A stretch of DNA of 37,105 bases from Elusimicrobia bacterium HGW-Elusimicrobia-2. GTDB taxonomy: Bacteria > CG03. The stretch covers positions 1 through 37,105 of the forward strand of contig PHAM01000013.1 of assembly GCA_002841685.1 (NCBI GenBank). Reading direction: 5' to 3'. The notes below the pieces were generated by a model. It was not told the DNA's origin and ran no database searches. It saw only the letters and a program-made list of their open reading frames with translations. Both the position numbers and the translations under genes were made by a program. Below, piece by piece: positions 5,859 to 36,184 of the stretch. Numbering within the stretch: position 1 is the stretch's first letter; the number at the start of each line of letters is the position of its first letter.

Positions 5859-6841
5859 TTTGATCTCCCCGTCTTTTTTTCTTCCGCCAGAACGCGCGAT
5901 GTCCACTTTGTGTTTTTTACATACCAGTCAACGGTTTTTTTCAGCCCCTCGGCGAAGGCCGTCCCCGCCTTCCAGCGGAGCTTTTGCCTTATTTTTGCGA
6001 CTGACAGCGCGTATCTTATATCGTGGCCAGGCCTGTCTTTTACAAACTCTATGAGCCTGTCCGGCTTTCCGAGCGCGTAGAGAATGCCCCTTACCACATC
6101 AATATTTTTTTTCTCCATGCCGCTCCCGACATTATAGGCCTGGCCGTCTTCGCCTTTTTCAAGGATAGCGGAAACCGCTTTCGCGCAATCCGCGACATAC
6201 AGCCACTCCCTCACATTCAGGCCCTTTGCGTAAACCGGCACCCTTTTATTTTTGAGAGCGTTCATTATTATAACGGGAATAAGTTTTTCCGGGAACTGCC
6301 AGGGCCCGTAATTATTGCTCGCCCTCATTATCACAACCGGCAGTCCGTAAGTCCTGTGATAGGCGGACACGAGCATATCCGCGGCGGCCTTGCTCACCGC
6401 GTAAGGGGAGTTCGGTGAAAAAGGCGAATTCTCGCTGAATGTTCCTTTGATAATATCCCCATAAACCTCGTCGGTGGACACATGTAGGAATCTTTTCACC
6501 TTATGCTTTTTAGCCGCGTCCAGCAGCACCTGCGTGCCTATGACATTGGTCGTCATAAAAACCGAGGCGTCGTCAATGCTCCGGTCAACGTGACTTTCCG
6601 CGGCAAAATGGGCGACAGCGTCGGGTTTTTCTTTTTTGAAAACGGCCTCTATTTTACGCGCGTCGCAAATATCCGTTTTGTAAAAAGAGTATTTGCCCGC
6701 GACTTCCGCCAGGCGCTTAATGTCGCCCGCGTATGTGATTTTATCAACAACCGCTATTTTGTATTTAGAGGCGTTCTGTCTGACAAACTCGCTCCCTATG
6801 AATCCGGCTCCTCCGGTGACAATAAGTTTTCTGTATCTCAC
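5855..6841 (-). CDS. rfbB: dTDP-glucose 4,6-dehydratase
   Basis: Converts dTDP-glucose to dTDP-4-keto-6-deoxyglucose using bound NAD+, the second step of dTDP-deoxysugar synthesis. An extended SDR of 328 residues: [11 protein letters not shown] cofactor loop (9-19), [12 protein letters not shown] (79-90), catalytic Thr-Asp-Glu at 123-125 in VSTDEVYGD, and Tyr147/Lys151 in PYAVSK. The start is GTG at 6841, overlapping the rfbA stop as GTGA. It follows rfbA directly and overlaps the nucleoside transporter by 4 bases. rfbC and rfbD are absent from the window, so the product need not become rhamnose here. Confidence 0.95.
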
Positions 6842-7711: not shown

Positions 7712-7738
7712 ATAGTAGCAAAAAAATATATTTAGCAA
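7712..7738 (-). promoter_or_regulatory. possible rfbA promoter
   Basis: On the minus strand TTGCTA (7738-7733), 15 bases, then TACTAT (7717-7712) preceded by the extended -10 TG at 7720-7719. The transcript would start within a base or two of the rfbA ATG (7704), a near-leaderless mRNA, consistent with the missing Shine-Dalgarno. The 15-base spacer is short. Confidence 0.4.
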
Positions 7739-7743
7739 AAACT

Positions 7744-8538
7744 TCACTCTGCCCTTTTCTCAATGACATCCAGCAGATACTCCGCTCTGTGGCGCGGGAG
7801 ATGATATTTTAAAAGATGCTTTTTGCCTTCGGCGGCGATGCATTCTCTTTCCTTATCGCGCTTCAGGTAATAATTCGTCAGACCTTCAAGGTCGCTGAGA
7901 TCATCTTTGCAGAACACGGCGTGCTTCCCGTGCTCAAAATCATCGGGGATGACAATGCCCGGCTTTCCGCTTACCATCAAACTTCCCACCGCTGGGATCT
8001 CCCAGTACCTGAGAGTGTCCCATCCCCCTCCGCGAAAGTTATAGCACACCTTTGACGCGGCAAGCTCTTTTAGATATTTGATTCCCTTCCTGTTATATTT
8101 TTTAAATGTCTGGCCCCGTGAGGTGCCGTTCTCACCGCAATCCCATTTACCCTCGCAAAAATCAAGCACTTTCGCTCTCACCGGAATATTATCCACCGCC
8201 CAGAAAACAACATCGTATTTTTTCACGCCGCCCGCACCGTCTATGAGCGGGCCGCCGTAGGCAAGCGGCAGAGGATAAACATTCGCGGGATAATTTTTAT
8301 TTTTCAGATATTCCCTCTTGAATATCACATCCGGCGCCCTTTTTGAAAAAGCCCTACCGTAGAGTTCCGCGAATCCGAGCCTTGAGGCATCTCCGCCGAC
8401 TTCAGCCTCATCGCCGCCGTCAATATAAACAACCTTCGCGTTTTTTGATAACTTCTCCGCTATACTGTCATAGGCCTCAAATGTGTCTCTCTTCGTTGAG
8501 CCGATTATCACACAGTCGTAAACCGCCCGGGACAGCAT
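7744..8538 (-). CDS. CgeB-like glycosyltransferase, C-terminal part after a frameshift
   Basis: This 264-residue frame holds most of a GT-B glycosyltransferase of the CgeB/Glyco_trans_1_2 type. The C-terminal donor-site region is recognisable: RGGGWDTLRYWEIPAVGSLMV, then GIVIPDDFEHGKHAVFC. Its first Met (8538) lies inside the seven-A run where the upstream frame (to 8756) would have to shift by -1. The join gives about 337 residues, a sensible length for the family. It may be expressed by frameshifting, by slippage, or as a separate product; or one A may have been lost by mutation or sequencing error. It sits between gmd and rfbA. Confidence 0.7.
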   Translation of the reverse strand: MLSRAVYDCVIIGSTKRDTFEAYDSIAEKLSKNAKVVYIDGGDEAEVGGDASRLGFAELYGRAFSKRAPDVIFKREYLKNKNYPANVYPLPLAYGGPLIDGAGGVKKYDVVFWAVDNIPVRAKVLDFCEGKWDCGENGTSRGQTFKKYNRKGIKYLKELAASKVCYNFRGGGWDTLRYWEIPAVGSLMVSGKPGIVIPDDFEHGKHAVFCKDDLSDLEGLTNYYLKRDKERECIAAEGKKHLLKYHLPRHRAEYLLDVIEKRAE

Positions 8539-8756
8539 TTTTTTCCGGCAAGCAGGTCGCTGAAATAATCGCTAAAATTCCGGCGGCAGGCTATGGCCTT
8601 CGGATAATGATGGGTCGGGATATAATGCTTTCGCCGCGCCCGCAGGGGAATAATATTTTCCTTGCCCAGCACATCGCTCAAACCAGTAAAGGCAAGGTCT
8701 TCAAGATAGTCAGACTGCCTTGAGGCGATGAACAATATCCTTTCAATCCGCGCCAT
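8508..8756 (-). CDS. CgeB-like glycosyltransferase, N-terminal part before a frameshift
   Basis: An 82-residue frame beginning MARIERILFIASRQ, a Rossmann-like first strand as in GT-B N-terminal domains. It aligns by context with the downstream frame 7744-8538: after residue 73 (GKK) the reading would continue as MLSRAVYDCVIIGS if the ribosome slipped back one base at 8544-8538. Without slippage the protein ends after nine unrelated residues. It starts 9 bases after the gmd stop with no good Shine-Dalgarno, so coupling to gmd is likely. Confidence 0.6.
   Translation of the reverse strand: MARIERILFIASRQSDYLEDLAFTGLSDVLGKENIIPLRARRKHYIPTHHYPKAIACRRNFSDYFSDLLAGKKCCPGRFTTV
8538..8544 (-). other. 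A7 slippery heptamer at the frame junction
   Basis: In the zero frame the mRNA reads GGA AAA AAA TGC, so A-AAA-AAA matches the X-XXY-YYZ pattern of -1 slippery sites in the correct phase. A -1 slip, or one extra A, joins the two glycosyltransferase frames exactly. Homopolymers are also where sequencing and replication errors occur. Confidence 0.6.
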
Positions 8757-23649: not shown

Positions 23650-24488
23650 TTCAGCACCGTGATGTCCTCTGTTCTGATCTGATCCAGGCCGTTGGCGCAC
23701 ATCAGCGCTCCCGAGCGGAGAACCTCTTCCAGCCGCGCGGCGTTATCACCGGAATACGCGCTTTTCCCGTGAGGGAAATGAAGGCTTACGGCCTCATTCG
23801 TGGCAAGCCTTCTTTTGATACCGGCGTTTGCGAGCCTGGTATCCAGCTCGGAATCCTCACAGTAGGCGCCTCTAAAATCATTGTTGTAGCCGTTGACCCT
23901 TTCGTAATCTTTTCTGTGAACACCCCAGCATCTTCCGGACATGTTTGAATTTTTCTTGAATGACTGTGTAATGGCCGCTAAGAACCGGGGGAGCAGAAAA
24001 CCGTAAGTGCAGTAACGGGTCCTGGCGAAAAAACCGTCTTTCCTTATCCTCCATTTGACAGAACCGCAGAAGATATCCTCCGCTGAAAATCCGTTTTTCA
24101 GGATATGAGCGGCTATCTTCTCGGACAAAAGCACCGCTCGCGTGACCATGTACTGCCCTTCGCATATATACTCTTTCGACCTGCTGATGTAATCGGGGTG
24201 GGCAATAGTGTCCGCGTCAAAAAAATATAATTTGTCTCCCGATGATATTTTGACGGCCTTGTTTATCGCCAGGGTTTTCCTGAAACCCTCATCATCCTGC
24301 CACACATGCTTTATATTCATCCTGCCGCGGAACGAATCCGCTATATTTTTTATTTCCGGGCCGCTGCCGTCATCGGCGATAATGAGCTCAAAATCACTGA
24401 AGGCCCCTCCGGCGAGGGCTTCCAGACAGAGCCTGAAAAGTTCGGCCCTGTTATAGGCGGCGACAATAACGGATATGCCTTGACTCAT
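23646..24488 (-). CDS. GT2 family glycosyltransferase, paralogue of the 20236 enzyme
   Basis: A 280-residue GT-A enzyme: ISVIVAAYNRAELFRLCLEAL, IIADDGSG, WQDDEGFRKTLAINKAVK, the DAD metal motif in YFFDADTIAHP, and a C-terminal acceptor block with GRCWGVHRKDYERVNGYNN and YCEDSELDTRL. The order and many residues match the gene at 20236-21084, indicating duplication within the cluster. ATG 24488 overlaps the small DUF4254-like gene as ATGA. Confidence 0.87.
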   Translation of the reverse strand: MSQGISVIVAAYNRAELFRLCLEALAGGAFSDFELIIADDGSGPEIKNIADSFRGRMNIKHVWQDDEGFRKTLAINKAVKISSGDKLYFFDADTIAHPDYISRSKEYICEGQYMVTRAVLLSEKIAAHILKNGFSAEDIFCGSVKWRIRKDGFFARTRYCTYGFLLPRFLAAITQSFKKNSNMSGRCWGVHRKDYERVNGYNNDFRGAYCEDSELDTRLANAGIKRRLATNEAVSLHFPHGKSAYSGDNAARLEEVLRSGALMCANGLDQIRTEDITVLK

Positions 24489-24754
24489 TTTTTTATCTTA
24501 TATTTCGGGTCGTTGTACATCTTGAACTGGCGGTAAAGTTTTATCTTCTTTCTGCCGGAAGCGATATCGTCATAGAGCCCGCTGAGTTCTTCCGCGAGGT
24601 CATCCCGCTGTTCGGTCAGTATACTCAATTTTTCGCGGCAGCTTTTTTTGTGTTCGGCTGAGGCGTCAGCGCGCTCAAGCTGCTCGGCCATATGAAACCT
24701 CTTGAGCTCGAAGATAGCTATCTTATCCGCGAGAGTGCCCAGTGTCTCAGCCAT
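24485..24754 (-). CDS. small protein resembling the C-terminal half of DUF4254
   Basis: An 89-residue, mostly helical protein. ETLGTLADKIAIFELKRFHMAEQL resembles, from memory, the DUF4254 segment that reads like ETPGSLIDRLSILNLKIYHM. A predicted coiled coil follows, ending in a Lys/Tyr-rich tail. DUF4254 proteins are about 200 residues, have no known activity, and often neighbour heptosyltransferase-type GT genes, as here. The start has a strong AGGAAAGGGGG upstream and overlaps the preceding 69-residue gene by 8 bases in another frame, so the two halves are separate genes rather than a single broken one. Confidence 0.65.
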   Translation of the reverse strand: MAETLGTLADKIAIFELKRFHMAEQLERADASAEHKKSCREKLSILTEQRDDLAEELSGLYDDIASGRKKIKLYRQFKMYNDPKYKIKK

Positions 24755-24956
24755 TTTTGCCCCCTTTCCTGAGGGCCATCGCCATCTCGTCTATCTTTTC
24801 TATGAGATCGTTCCTCTTCTGGTTGAGCTTATCAACGGCGCGCTTCGCCGCGGCCACGGGCGCGTCAGCTTTAACCCTGGCTTTGTCTTCCTCGTGCCAC
24901 AACTCTATGTTCGTCATCGCGAGCTCACTCACAAATTCACCGAATTTCTTTTCCAT
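24747..24956 (-). CDS. small protein resembling the N-terminal half of DUF4254
   Basis: A 69-residue helical protein containing ELAMTNIELWHEEDKAR and VDKLNQKRNDLIEKIDE, very like the first half of DUF4254 as I recall it (NFRLWHEEDxAR, then AIDxLNQxRNDxIExID). AAAGGAGAT precedes the ATG at ideal spacing. It lies between a methyltransferase and the C-terminal-half gene. The pair probably forms one helical hetero-complex serving the adjacent glycosyltransferases; that function is inference. Confidence 0.65.
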   Translation of the reverse strand: MEKKFGEFVSELAMTNIELWHEEDKARVKADAPVAAAKRAVDKLNQKRNDLIEKIDEMAMALRKGGKNG

Positions 24957-30119: not shown

Positions 30120-30530
30120 CTATCGTTCCGTATATTTATCAACTTTCTTTACAAGGTCCGAGGGTTTCAGCGGCTTTGATATATAATCATCGCATCCGGC
30201 CTTCAGAGCCCTGTCCCTGTCGCCGCTCATCGCGTGGGCAGTGGCCGCTATCAGGGGCGTTAAGGGGTATTTGCCCTTTATTATCTCTATCAGATCCCAG
30301 CCCGATATTTTCGGCAGTGACAGGTCAACGAGGATCACGGAATATTCCGATTCGTCTATCTTTTTAAGGGCGTCTTCGCCGTCAACGGCTTCCGTCACCT
30401 CATAATCCGCCATTTCCAGGACTGTGCGGAATATCTCCCTTGAATCCGCGTTGTCCTCTATTATAAGTATTTTTTTTCCGCCGCAGGCGGATTTCGCACG
30501 CCACGGCGCACTTTCAGCTTTGTTCAACAT
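30120..30530 (-). CDS. single-domain response regulator (CheY-like), second
   Basis: A 136-residue protein: about 18 basic, low-complexity residues and then a receiver domain with Glu25-Asp26, Asp69 in LVDLSLPKISGW, Thr97 and Lys119 in YISKPLKP. It has no DNA-binding output. ATG 30530 overlaps the gatB stop by 7 bases and has GGGGAA upstream, so it is coupled to gatB. It resembles the second-stage receivers of relay systems such as DivK (comparison from memory). Confidence 0.9.
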   Translation of the reverse strand: MLNKAESAPWRAKSACGGKKILIIEDNADSREIFRTVLEMADYEVTEAVDGEDALKKIDESEYSVILVDLSLPKISGWDLIEIIKGKYPLTPLIAATAHAMSGDRDRALKAGCDDYISKPLKPSDLVKKVDKYTER

Positions 30531-34428: not shown

Positions 34429-34934
34429 AATTTCTCGATCCTGTTGCTGAAGCGCGCTCGGGCTTCCTTCAGTATCTCGTGCACCTCTTTTCCGTCAACA
34501 GGGTCTTTCATCTCCGGCGCTATCTCGGCGAGAGGCTCTATCACAAAAAGCCGTCTGCGGAATGCAGGATGGGGAATGACGAGATCATCCCTCTTCACTA
34601 TCTCGGAGCCGAAAAGGATTATGTCTATATCCAGCGTCCGGGGGCCGTATTTTATCGACCGGGCCCGGCCGTATTTTTTCTCCACGCTGTTCACTTTTTT
34701 GAGCAGTGTGTCCGGCGATATGCTCGTTTTGCCGGCAACCACCAGATTGATAAAATCCGGCTGGTACTTCATGTCCATCGGATCCGTCCTGTAAAAACTT
34801 GACACCTTCATGTCGTCAACGAAACGGCTCAGGTCCTTGAGGCTGCTCAGGAGCGTCTGATACGAATCGCCCACATTACTTCCAAGAGACAGCGCTACCT
34901 CTTTTACATTTTTTTCTTCCATGGCCTCGCTCAC
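34425..34934 (-). CDS. folK: 2-amino-4-hydroxy-6-hydroxymethyldihydropteridine pyrophosphokinase
   Basis: Folate-pathway enzyme that pyrophosphorylates hydroxymethyldihydropterin. Signatures are ALSLGSNVGD, FYRTDP, the Lys-Tyr-Gly-Arg segment and GPRTLDIDIILFG with metal-binding Asp residues, and IPHPAFRRRLFV. It is 169 residues from GTG 34934 (GTGA overlap with thrC) or 165 from ATG 34922; neither has a strong Shine-Dalgarno. folP and folB are not nearby. Confidence 0.95.
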   Translation of the reverse strand: MSEAMEEKNVKEVALSLGSNVGDSYQTLLSSLKDLSRFVDDMKVSSFYRTDPMDMKYQPDFINLVVAGKTSISPDTLLKKVNSVEKKYGRARSIKYGPRTLDIDIILFGSEIVKRDDLVIPHPAFRRRLFVIEPLAEIAPEMKDPVDGKEVHEILKEARARFSNRIEKL

Positions 34935-36184
34935 TTTCCGCAGAGGATTTCCAGTGTTTCAGCTTTATCCGTTGAAACGCTTATCGGTTTGCCCGCCGCC
35001 TTGAGGGCGGATGCGACGTCTTTCAGCCCGCTGCCTGTCACAAGACAGACTATCCTGCTGCCCGCTTTCACCTTCCTGTCTTCAAGTGCCTTTTTAAGTC
35101 CGGCGTAGGCCGTGGCACCCGCCGGCTCCGGGAAAAGTCCCGTGTTCGAGGATATCTCTTTTATGGCCTCGAGGATCGCCTCGTCACTTATCTCCACCGA
35201 AAAGCCGTCCGTCTCACGCACGGCCCGCACGGCGGCGAGGCCGTCGCGCGGCACATCCACGCTGATGGAATCGGCGATCGTTGTGGCGTTCACCTGTATC
35301 ATCTCTATCTCTTCGGGCGACACATCTTTGCCTTTATATTTTTCAAGCGTTTTGTGGACGGCATCCGAATTTTTTGACTGCACGGCCACGATCTTCGGGA
35401 TGCTCTGCGTGAAACCCGCATAGAAAAGTTCGCGGAAGCCTTTCCACACACCGCTTATTATGTTGCCGTCGCCGACCGGGACAAAAACATAGTCCGGCAC
35501 TTCCCATCCCAGATCCTCGGCGATCTCAAAAGACACCGTTTTCTTGCCTTCCCTCGTCCAGGGATTGAGTCCCGTGCTGCGGTTGAAACAGCCTATCTCC
35601 GTCGAGACACAGGCGCAAAGGTCAAAGGCCTCGTCATAAGTGCCCTGCACGGCGAAAACCTTCGCTCCGAAAAGGAGCAGCTGGGCTATCTTTGCCTGCG
35701 GGGCTTTTTCCGGAACAAAAATAATGCAACCCATTCCCACGCTCGCGGCAAGACACGCCAGGGAAGAGCCCGCGTTCCCTGTGGAAGCGCAGGATATCCT
35801 GTCCAGCCCGTCCTCGCGGGCCACGGTGAGCGCCACGGCGCCGGCCCTGTCCTTGAACGAGGCCGAGGGATTCCTTGTGTCGTCCTTGAAGAAAAGCTCA
35901 ACGCCCCATTTTGAGGAAAGCCTGTCGCTCTTTACCAGGGGCGTGCCGCCAACCAGAAGAGGCGGAGTCAGTTTTGTATCAGCGAAGGGAAAAAACGGCA
36001 GATACCTGTATATGCCTTTCTCGGCGGAGTTTTTCACAGCGTCGGCCTTCCGGCCTATGCGGGCGTAGTCGTAAACCGCCTCAAGATTCCCTGAGCAGTC
36101 CGGGCACTGGTAACGCGCCTGCTTCAAGGAAAATTCTTTTCCGCATCTTAAACATTTAAAGCCTTTCAAATTTTCTGAGATCAT
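34931..36184 (-). CDS. thrC: threonine synthase
   Basis: PLP enzyme converting O-phosphohomoserine to threonine, 417 residues. It begins with a zinc-ribbon-like segment (CLRCGKEF and CPDCSGNLE). The PLP Lys lies in NPSASFKDRAG, the phosphate loop in STGNAGSSLA, and GDGNIISGVWKGF and LVTGSGLKD complete the fold type II pattern. Start ATG 36184 overlaps the hisS stop as ATGA. Cysteate synthase and related enzymes share the fold, but the motif set fits ThrC. Confidence 0.93.
   Translation of the reverse strand: MISENLKGFKCLRCGKEFSLKQARYQCPDCSGNLEAVYDYARIGRKADAVKNSAEKGIYRYLPFFPFADTKLTPPLLVGGTPLVKSDRLSSKWGVELFFKDDTRNPSASFKDRAGAVALTVAREDGLDRISCASTGNAGSSLACLAASVGMGCIIFVPEKAPQAKIAQLLLFGAKVFAVQGTYDEAFDLCACVSTEIGCFNRSTGLNPWTREGKKTVSFEIAEDLGWEVPDYVFVPVGDGNIISGVWKGFRELFYAGFTQSIPKIVAVQSKNSDAVHKTLEKYKGKDVSPEEIEMIQVNATTIADSISVDVPRDGLAAVRAVRETDGFSVEISDEAILEAIKEISSNTGLFPEPAGATAYAGLKKALEDRKVKAGSRIVCLVTGSGLKDVASALKAAGKPISVSTDKAETLEILCGK

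Follow-up and report, generated by a model that had tools for sequence, protein, structure and literature searches.

The stretch of DNA analyzed here (the window; 37,105 nucleotides) makes up most of contig 53 in a metagenome-type assembly (94 contigs, 1.78 Mb) of an uncultured bacterium, Elusimicrobia bacterium HGW-Elusimicrobia-2. On its minus strand, a glycosyltransferase gene is divided between two open reading frames (ORFs) that overlap at a run of seven adenines (A7) (Table 1). The upstream frame reads GCC GGA AAA AAA TGC over the run and continues to its stop at 8508, and the −1 frame begins after the run with ATG CTG TCC and stays open as far as the stop ending at 7744. The run itself, A_AAA_AAA, is a slippery heptamer of the form X_XXY_YYZ in the right phase for −1 slippage. 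Re-reading of the sequence agreed with a preliminary description of this locus in the coordinates, the ORF lengths, and the −1 phase of the run.

Table 1. Features of the interrupted glycosyltransferase gene
Feature	Position	Strand	Description
Upstream ORF	8756-8508	−	82 codons; first 73 form the N-terminal part of the glycosyltransferase; 89% identity to residues 1-75 of the intact relative
A7 run	8544-8538	−	Place of the frame change; A8 in relatives
Downstream ORF	8538-7744	−	264 codons; encode the C-terminal part of the glycosyltransferase, which includes PF13524; 94% identity to the intact relative

When the two frames are joined after codon 73, the resulting 337-residue protein aligns over its full length with the 336-residue protein of an intact relative (about 94% identity), which indicates that the halves are one gene and that the frame transition is real in the assembly. 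The single joined enzyme of about 337 residues proposed in the preliminary description is therefore borne out by the uninterrupted 336-codon frame of the nearest relative.

The C-terminal part resembles the PF13524 (Glyco_trans_1_2) glycosyltransferases, matching the profile with an E value of about 1e-12 and 48.5 to 49 bits, above the curated cut-off of 25. The match is confined to this part, and the N-terminal part alone matched no Pfam model. No NCBIfam model matched the glycosyltransferase, so that from the earlier family name "CgeB-like" PF13524 alone is supported, and a sequence search of the PDB with the glycosyltransferase returned no significant match. An AlphaFold2 model of the intact relative, made without an alignment, had a mean pLDDT of 37.9 and was set aside. 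The gene neighbors are nucleotide-sugar enzymes, methyltransferases, and other glycosyltransferases, and the split gene is an ordinary glycosyltransferase in a surface-polysaccharide-type cluster. At 7720-7760, the final few glycosyltransferase codons and the intergenic spacer leading to the nucleotidyltransferase gene (7704) diverge sharply from the relatives, with both flanks of this segment about 92 to 95% identical to them.

Intact relatives of the interrupted gene

A search of 98 genomes yielded two close matches, G001 (VMTI01000208.1) and G003. The remaining matches were weak and covered the C-terminal region, so that the gene differs from other PF13524 glycosyltransferases in having one orthologous population, 94% identical, in this set. 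Among 16 genomes of the phylum, the gene was found in none besides these two. Both carry a 339-codon open frame, counted from stop to stop, that encodes an uninterrupted 336-residue protein, and both have A8 at the site of the A7 run, in DNA that is 92% identical over 1.4 kb. Since the relatives read the A8 frame without slippage, the frame transition is not conserved in the orthologues, which have one open frame. Over about 31 kb aligned between the window and G001, the A7/A8 difference is the sole gene-breaking one-base indel among the window genes. The frame change is unique to one genome and is validated by an intact homologue, in support of the earlier suggestion of an error of one A. The preliminary description had looked to relatives with an uninterrupted frame and no slippery run as evidence against recoding; the uninterrupted frame is present, but the run is kept as A8.

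Over 22.2 kb that contain the glycosyltransferase gene, G001 and G003 show 100% identity, and they are nearly identical over a further 21.0 kb. Elsewhere, G001 is about 70 to 80% identical to the window genome and G003 about 95% (20 kb sampled). The G001 contig concerned, contig 232 (L012-L014), matches G003 contigs at 99.99 to 100% identity across 43 kb and is probably a stray, mis-binned contig from a G003-like population. Because this contig is almost identical to G003 and the rest of G001 is distant, the evidence for A8 in effect traces back to a single relative population, which was seen in two assemblies with differing contig ends.

The C-terminal part compared with the relative gave an omega of 0.14, with 24 of the 36 changes at third positions, and the N-terminal part gave an omega of 0.53, based on just 10 changes. 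The gene was thus constrained up to the recent past, and constraint on its C-terminal part is intact, in keeping with either a miscall or a lesion of recent date.

Homopolymer runs and one-base lesions in the background

The other intact genes of the window contain 53 coding-strand A/T runs of at least 7, and 22 of these place a heptamer in the −1 phase (8 are exactly A7), which indicates that an in-phase A7 is common in the window. A base lost from a run of such length leaves the right phase roughly 1 time in 3, and the in-phase A7 at the glycosyltransferase is no more than chance. Runs of A7 and A8 are common in intact window genes, housekeeping genes included. Dozens of these tracts are at least as long as the one in the glycosyltransferase gene, which is not a hypermutable tract clearly above background length such as characterizes phase-variable genes.

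To measure how often runs of this kind change, 767 kb of the window genome was compared with 806 kb of G003, of which 216 kb could be aligned at 94.7% identity. One-base differences affected 3 of 56 (5%) coding A/T runs whose longer copy was 8, 2 of 158 whose longer copy was 7, and 2 of 336 whose longer copy was 6, and the changes in run length go in both directions. In roughly 190 orthologues, 173 to 176 were intact and about 7, as assigned by eye from the list of broken frames, were cut by indels in either genome. The glycosyltransferase gene, L028, and L182 are cut on the window-genome side, and the window gene at 34931-36184, L027, L053, and L180 are cut on the G003 side. The A7/A8 break is one member of this background of one-base lesions.

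The window gene at 34931-36184 (minus strand, 417 codons) is intact in the window genome and in G001 and is cut in G003 by a T6-to-T5 change (G003:C13, L042, near 18648). G003 and the G001 contig are otherwise almost identical, with 2 mismatches and 1 gap across 43 kb, and the lesion is likely a miscall or a very recent mutation. Its presence in G003 and absence from G001 indicate that one-base differences arise even between near-identical assemblies. At L028 (G000:C11, about 829-1990), a 387-codon G003 gene is broken in the window genome by a T8-to-T7 change and a 2-base insertion and looks like a genuine pseudogene. The number of homopolymer indels that separate related metagenome assemblies serves as a useful yardstick for judging "slippery-site" frameshifts reported from a single assembly.

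The interrupted gene resembles the GeneTack singletons of Antonov et al. 2013 (PMC3711429) in having a frame change in one genome, a whole frame in a homologue, and a homopolymer at the site, and it showed no difference from them in the features tested. Homologue-validated singleton frameshifts were attributed in that study mostly to sequencing error or a recent indel.

Explanations of the frame change

Very probably, a single A was lost from A8, and the break is either a recent pseudogene or strain polymorphism caused by replication slippage or a consensus miscall, with no special mode of reading the gene involved. This explanation draws directly on three observations: the A7/A8 difference, the intact frame of the relatives, and how often comparable lesions occur in the background. 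In this lineage, replication slippage would have removed one A from the A8 run; alternatively, one base may have been miscalled in the assembly consensus. Between these two, a real recent mutation is slightly favored over a miscall. Were the loss real, translation would yield an 82-residue stub with loss of function, and full-length enzyme would be made solely via low-level leaky slippage on A7. As A7 lies in the −1 slippage phase, some joined product could be made, which counts against a simple loss, as does the origin of the A8 evidence in what is effectively one relative population. It is very unlikely that this lineage tolerates the loss because slippage on A7 supplies enough full-length enzyme, or that the A7/A8 tract switches a surface sugar within the population.

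Functional −1 recoding, in which slippage of the ribosome on A_AAA_AAA or of RNA polymerase on A7 would give useful amounts of full-length enzyme, has in its favor the phase of the heptamer, which links two segments belonging to a single protein in the relatives, and a predicted stem closed by a 7-bp helix. The 81 bases after A7 fold at −23.1 kcal/mol compared with −19.3 ± 3.1 for shuffled sequences (z = −1.23, pseudoknot-free folding), which is not significant; the helix starts directly after the run without a spacer, and the A8 relative, which needs no slippage, has much the same fold (z = −1.02). The stem was accordingly rejected as a frameshift stimulator, and inspection of the sequence upstream of A7 revealed no Shine-Dalgarno-like or purine-rich stimulator. 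Programmed −1 frameshifting on A-rich heptamers, as in IS3-family elements and dnaX, shares the in-phase A_AAA_AAA with the present site, but the present site is not conserved and lacks both a significant stem at the proper spacing and an upstream Shine-Dalgarno-like element. In Escherichia coli, frameshift-prone heptamers without stimulators exceed the 0.055% background about 2- to 10-fold (PMC4066793), which indicates that any rescue on A7 would be small. With a split that is not conserved, no convincing stimulator, and gene-breaking homopolymer differences as a regular background, the recoding put forward in the preliminary description is very unlikely. Its phase-variation reading, in which A7 (off) and A8 (on) would alternate within the population and vary a surface sugar, fares no better and is extremely unlikely. 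The setting amid glycosyltransferases and nucleotide-sugar enzymes and two known states one A apart would suit it, but the tract is short and one-base changes affect A/T runs generally, with 5% of the 8-base class altered when species about 95% identical are compared.

GT-B enzymes normally need their N-terminal domain. It is scarcely credible that the C-terminal part starts by itself at the ATG at 8538 and that the enzyme is active as two separate polypeptides or through its C-terminal part alone. This ATG sits where the run ends and is preceded by GGA, PF13524 falls wholly inside the C-terminal part, and constraint is weaker in the N-terminal part. However, the ATG corresponds to an internal methionine in the intact relative, GGA is a poor ribosome-binding site, the N-terminal part holds the start of the N-terminal domain, and the difference in constraint is based on few changes. 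For annotation, both ORFs are to be entered as a single interrupted glycosyltransferase gene; the finding is otherwise of little weight.

Other loci

At 24485-24956 on the minus strand, a DUF4254 (PF14063) protein is spread over two ORFs that share 8 bases (ATGGCTGA); its two parts cover positions 3-58 and 73-143 of the profile. In G001 and G003 the split is collinear and free of indels, so it was rejected as a second assembly indel and represents a conserved fission or coupled pair. At 30477-30527, the window has 51 bases, including a small inverted repeat (CCGCCGCAGGCGG), that flank a T8 run on its 3' side and are missing from the relatives. In addition, a dispersed 25-base motif (TGGGGTCAGGTCTTGACATTAGACA), which we take to resemble REP or transposase-associated repeats, recurs in the window genome and its relatives (L019 at 5993-6067 in G000:C2, L170 at 2037, and L183 at 4908), and in L019 two inverted copies are separated by about 25 bases.
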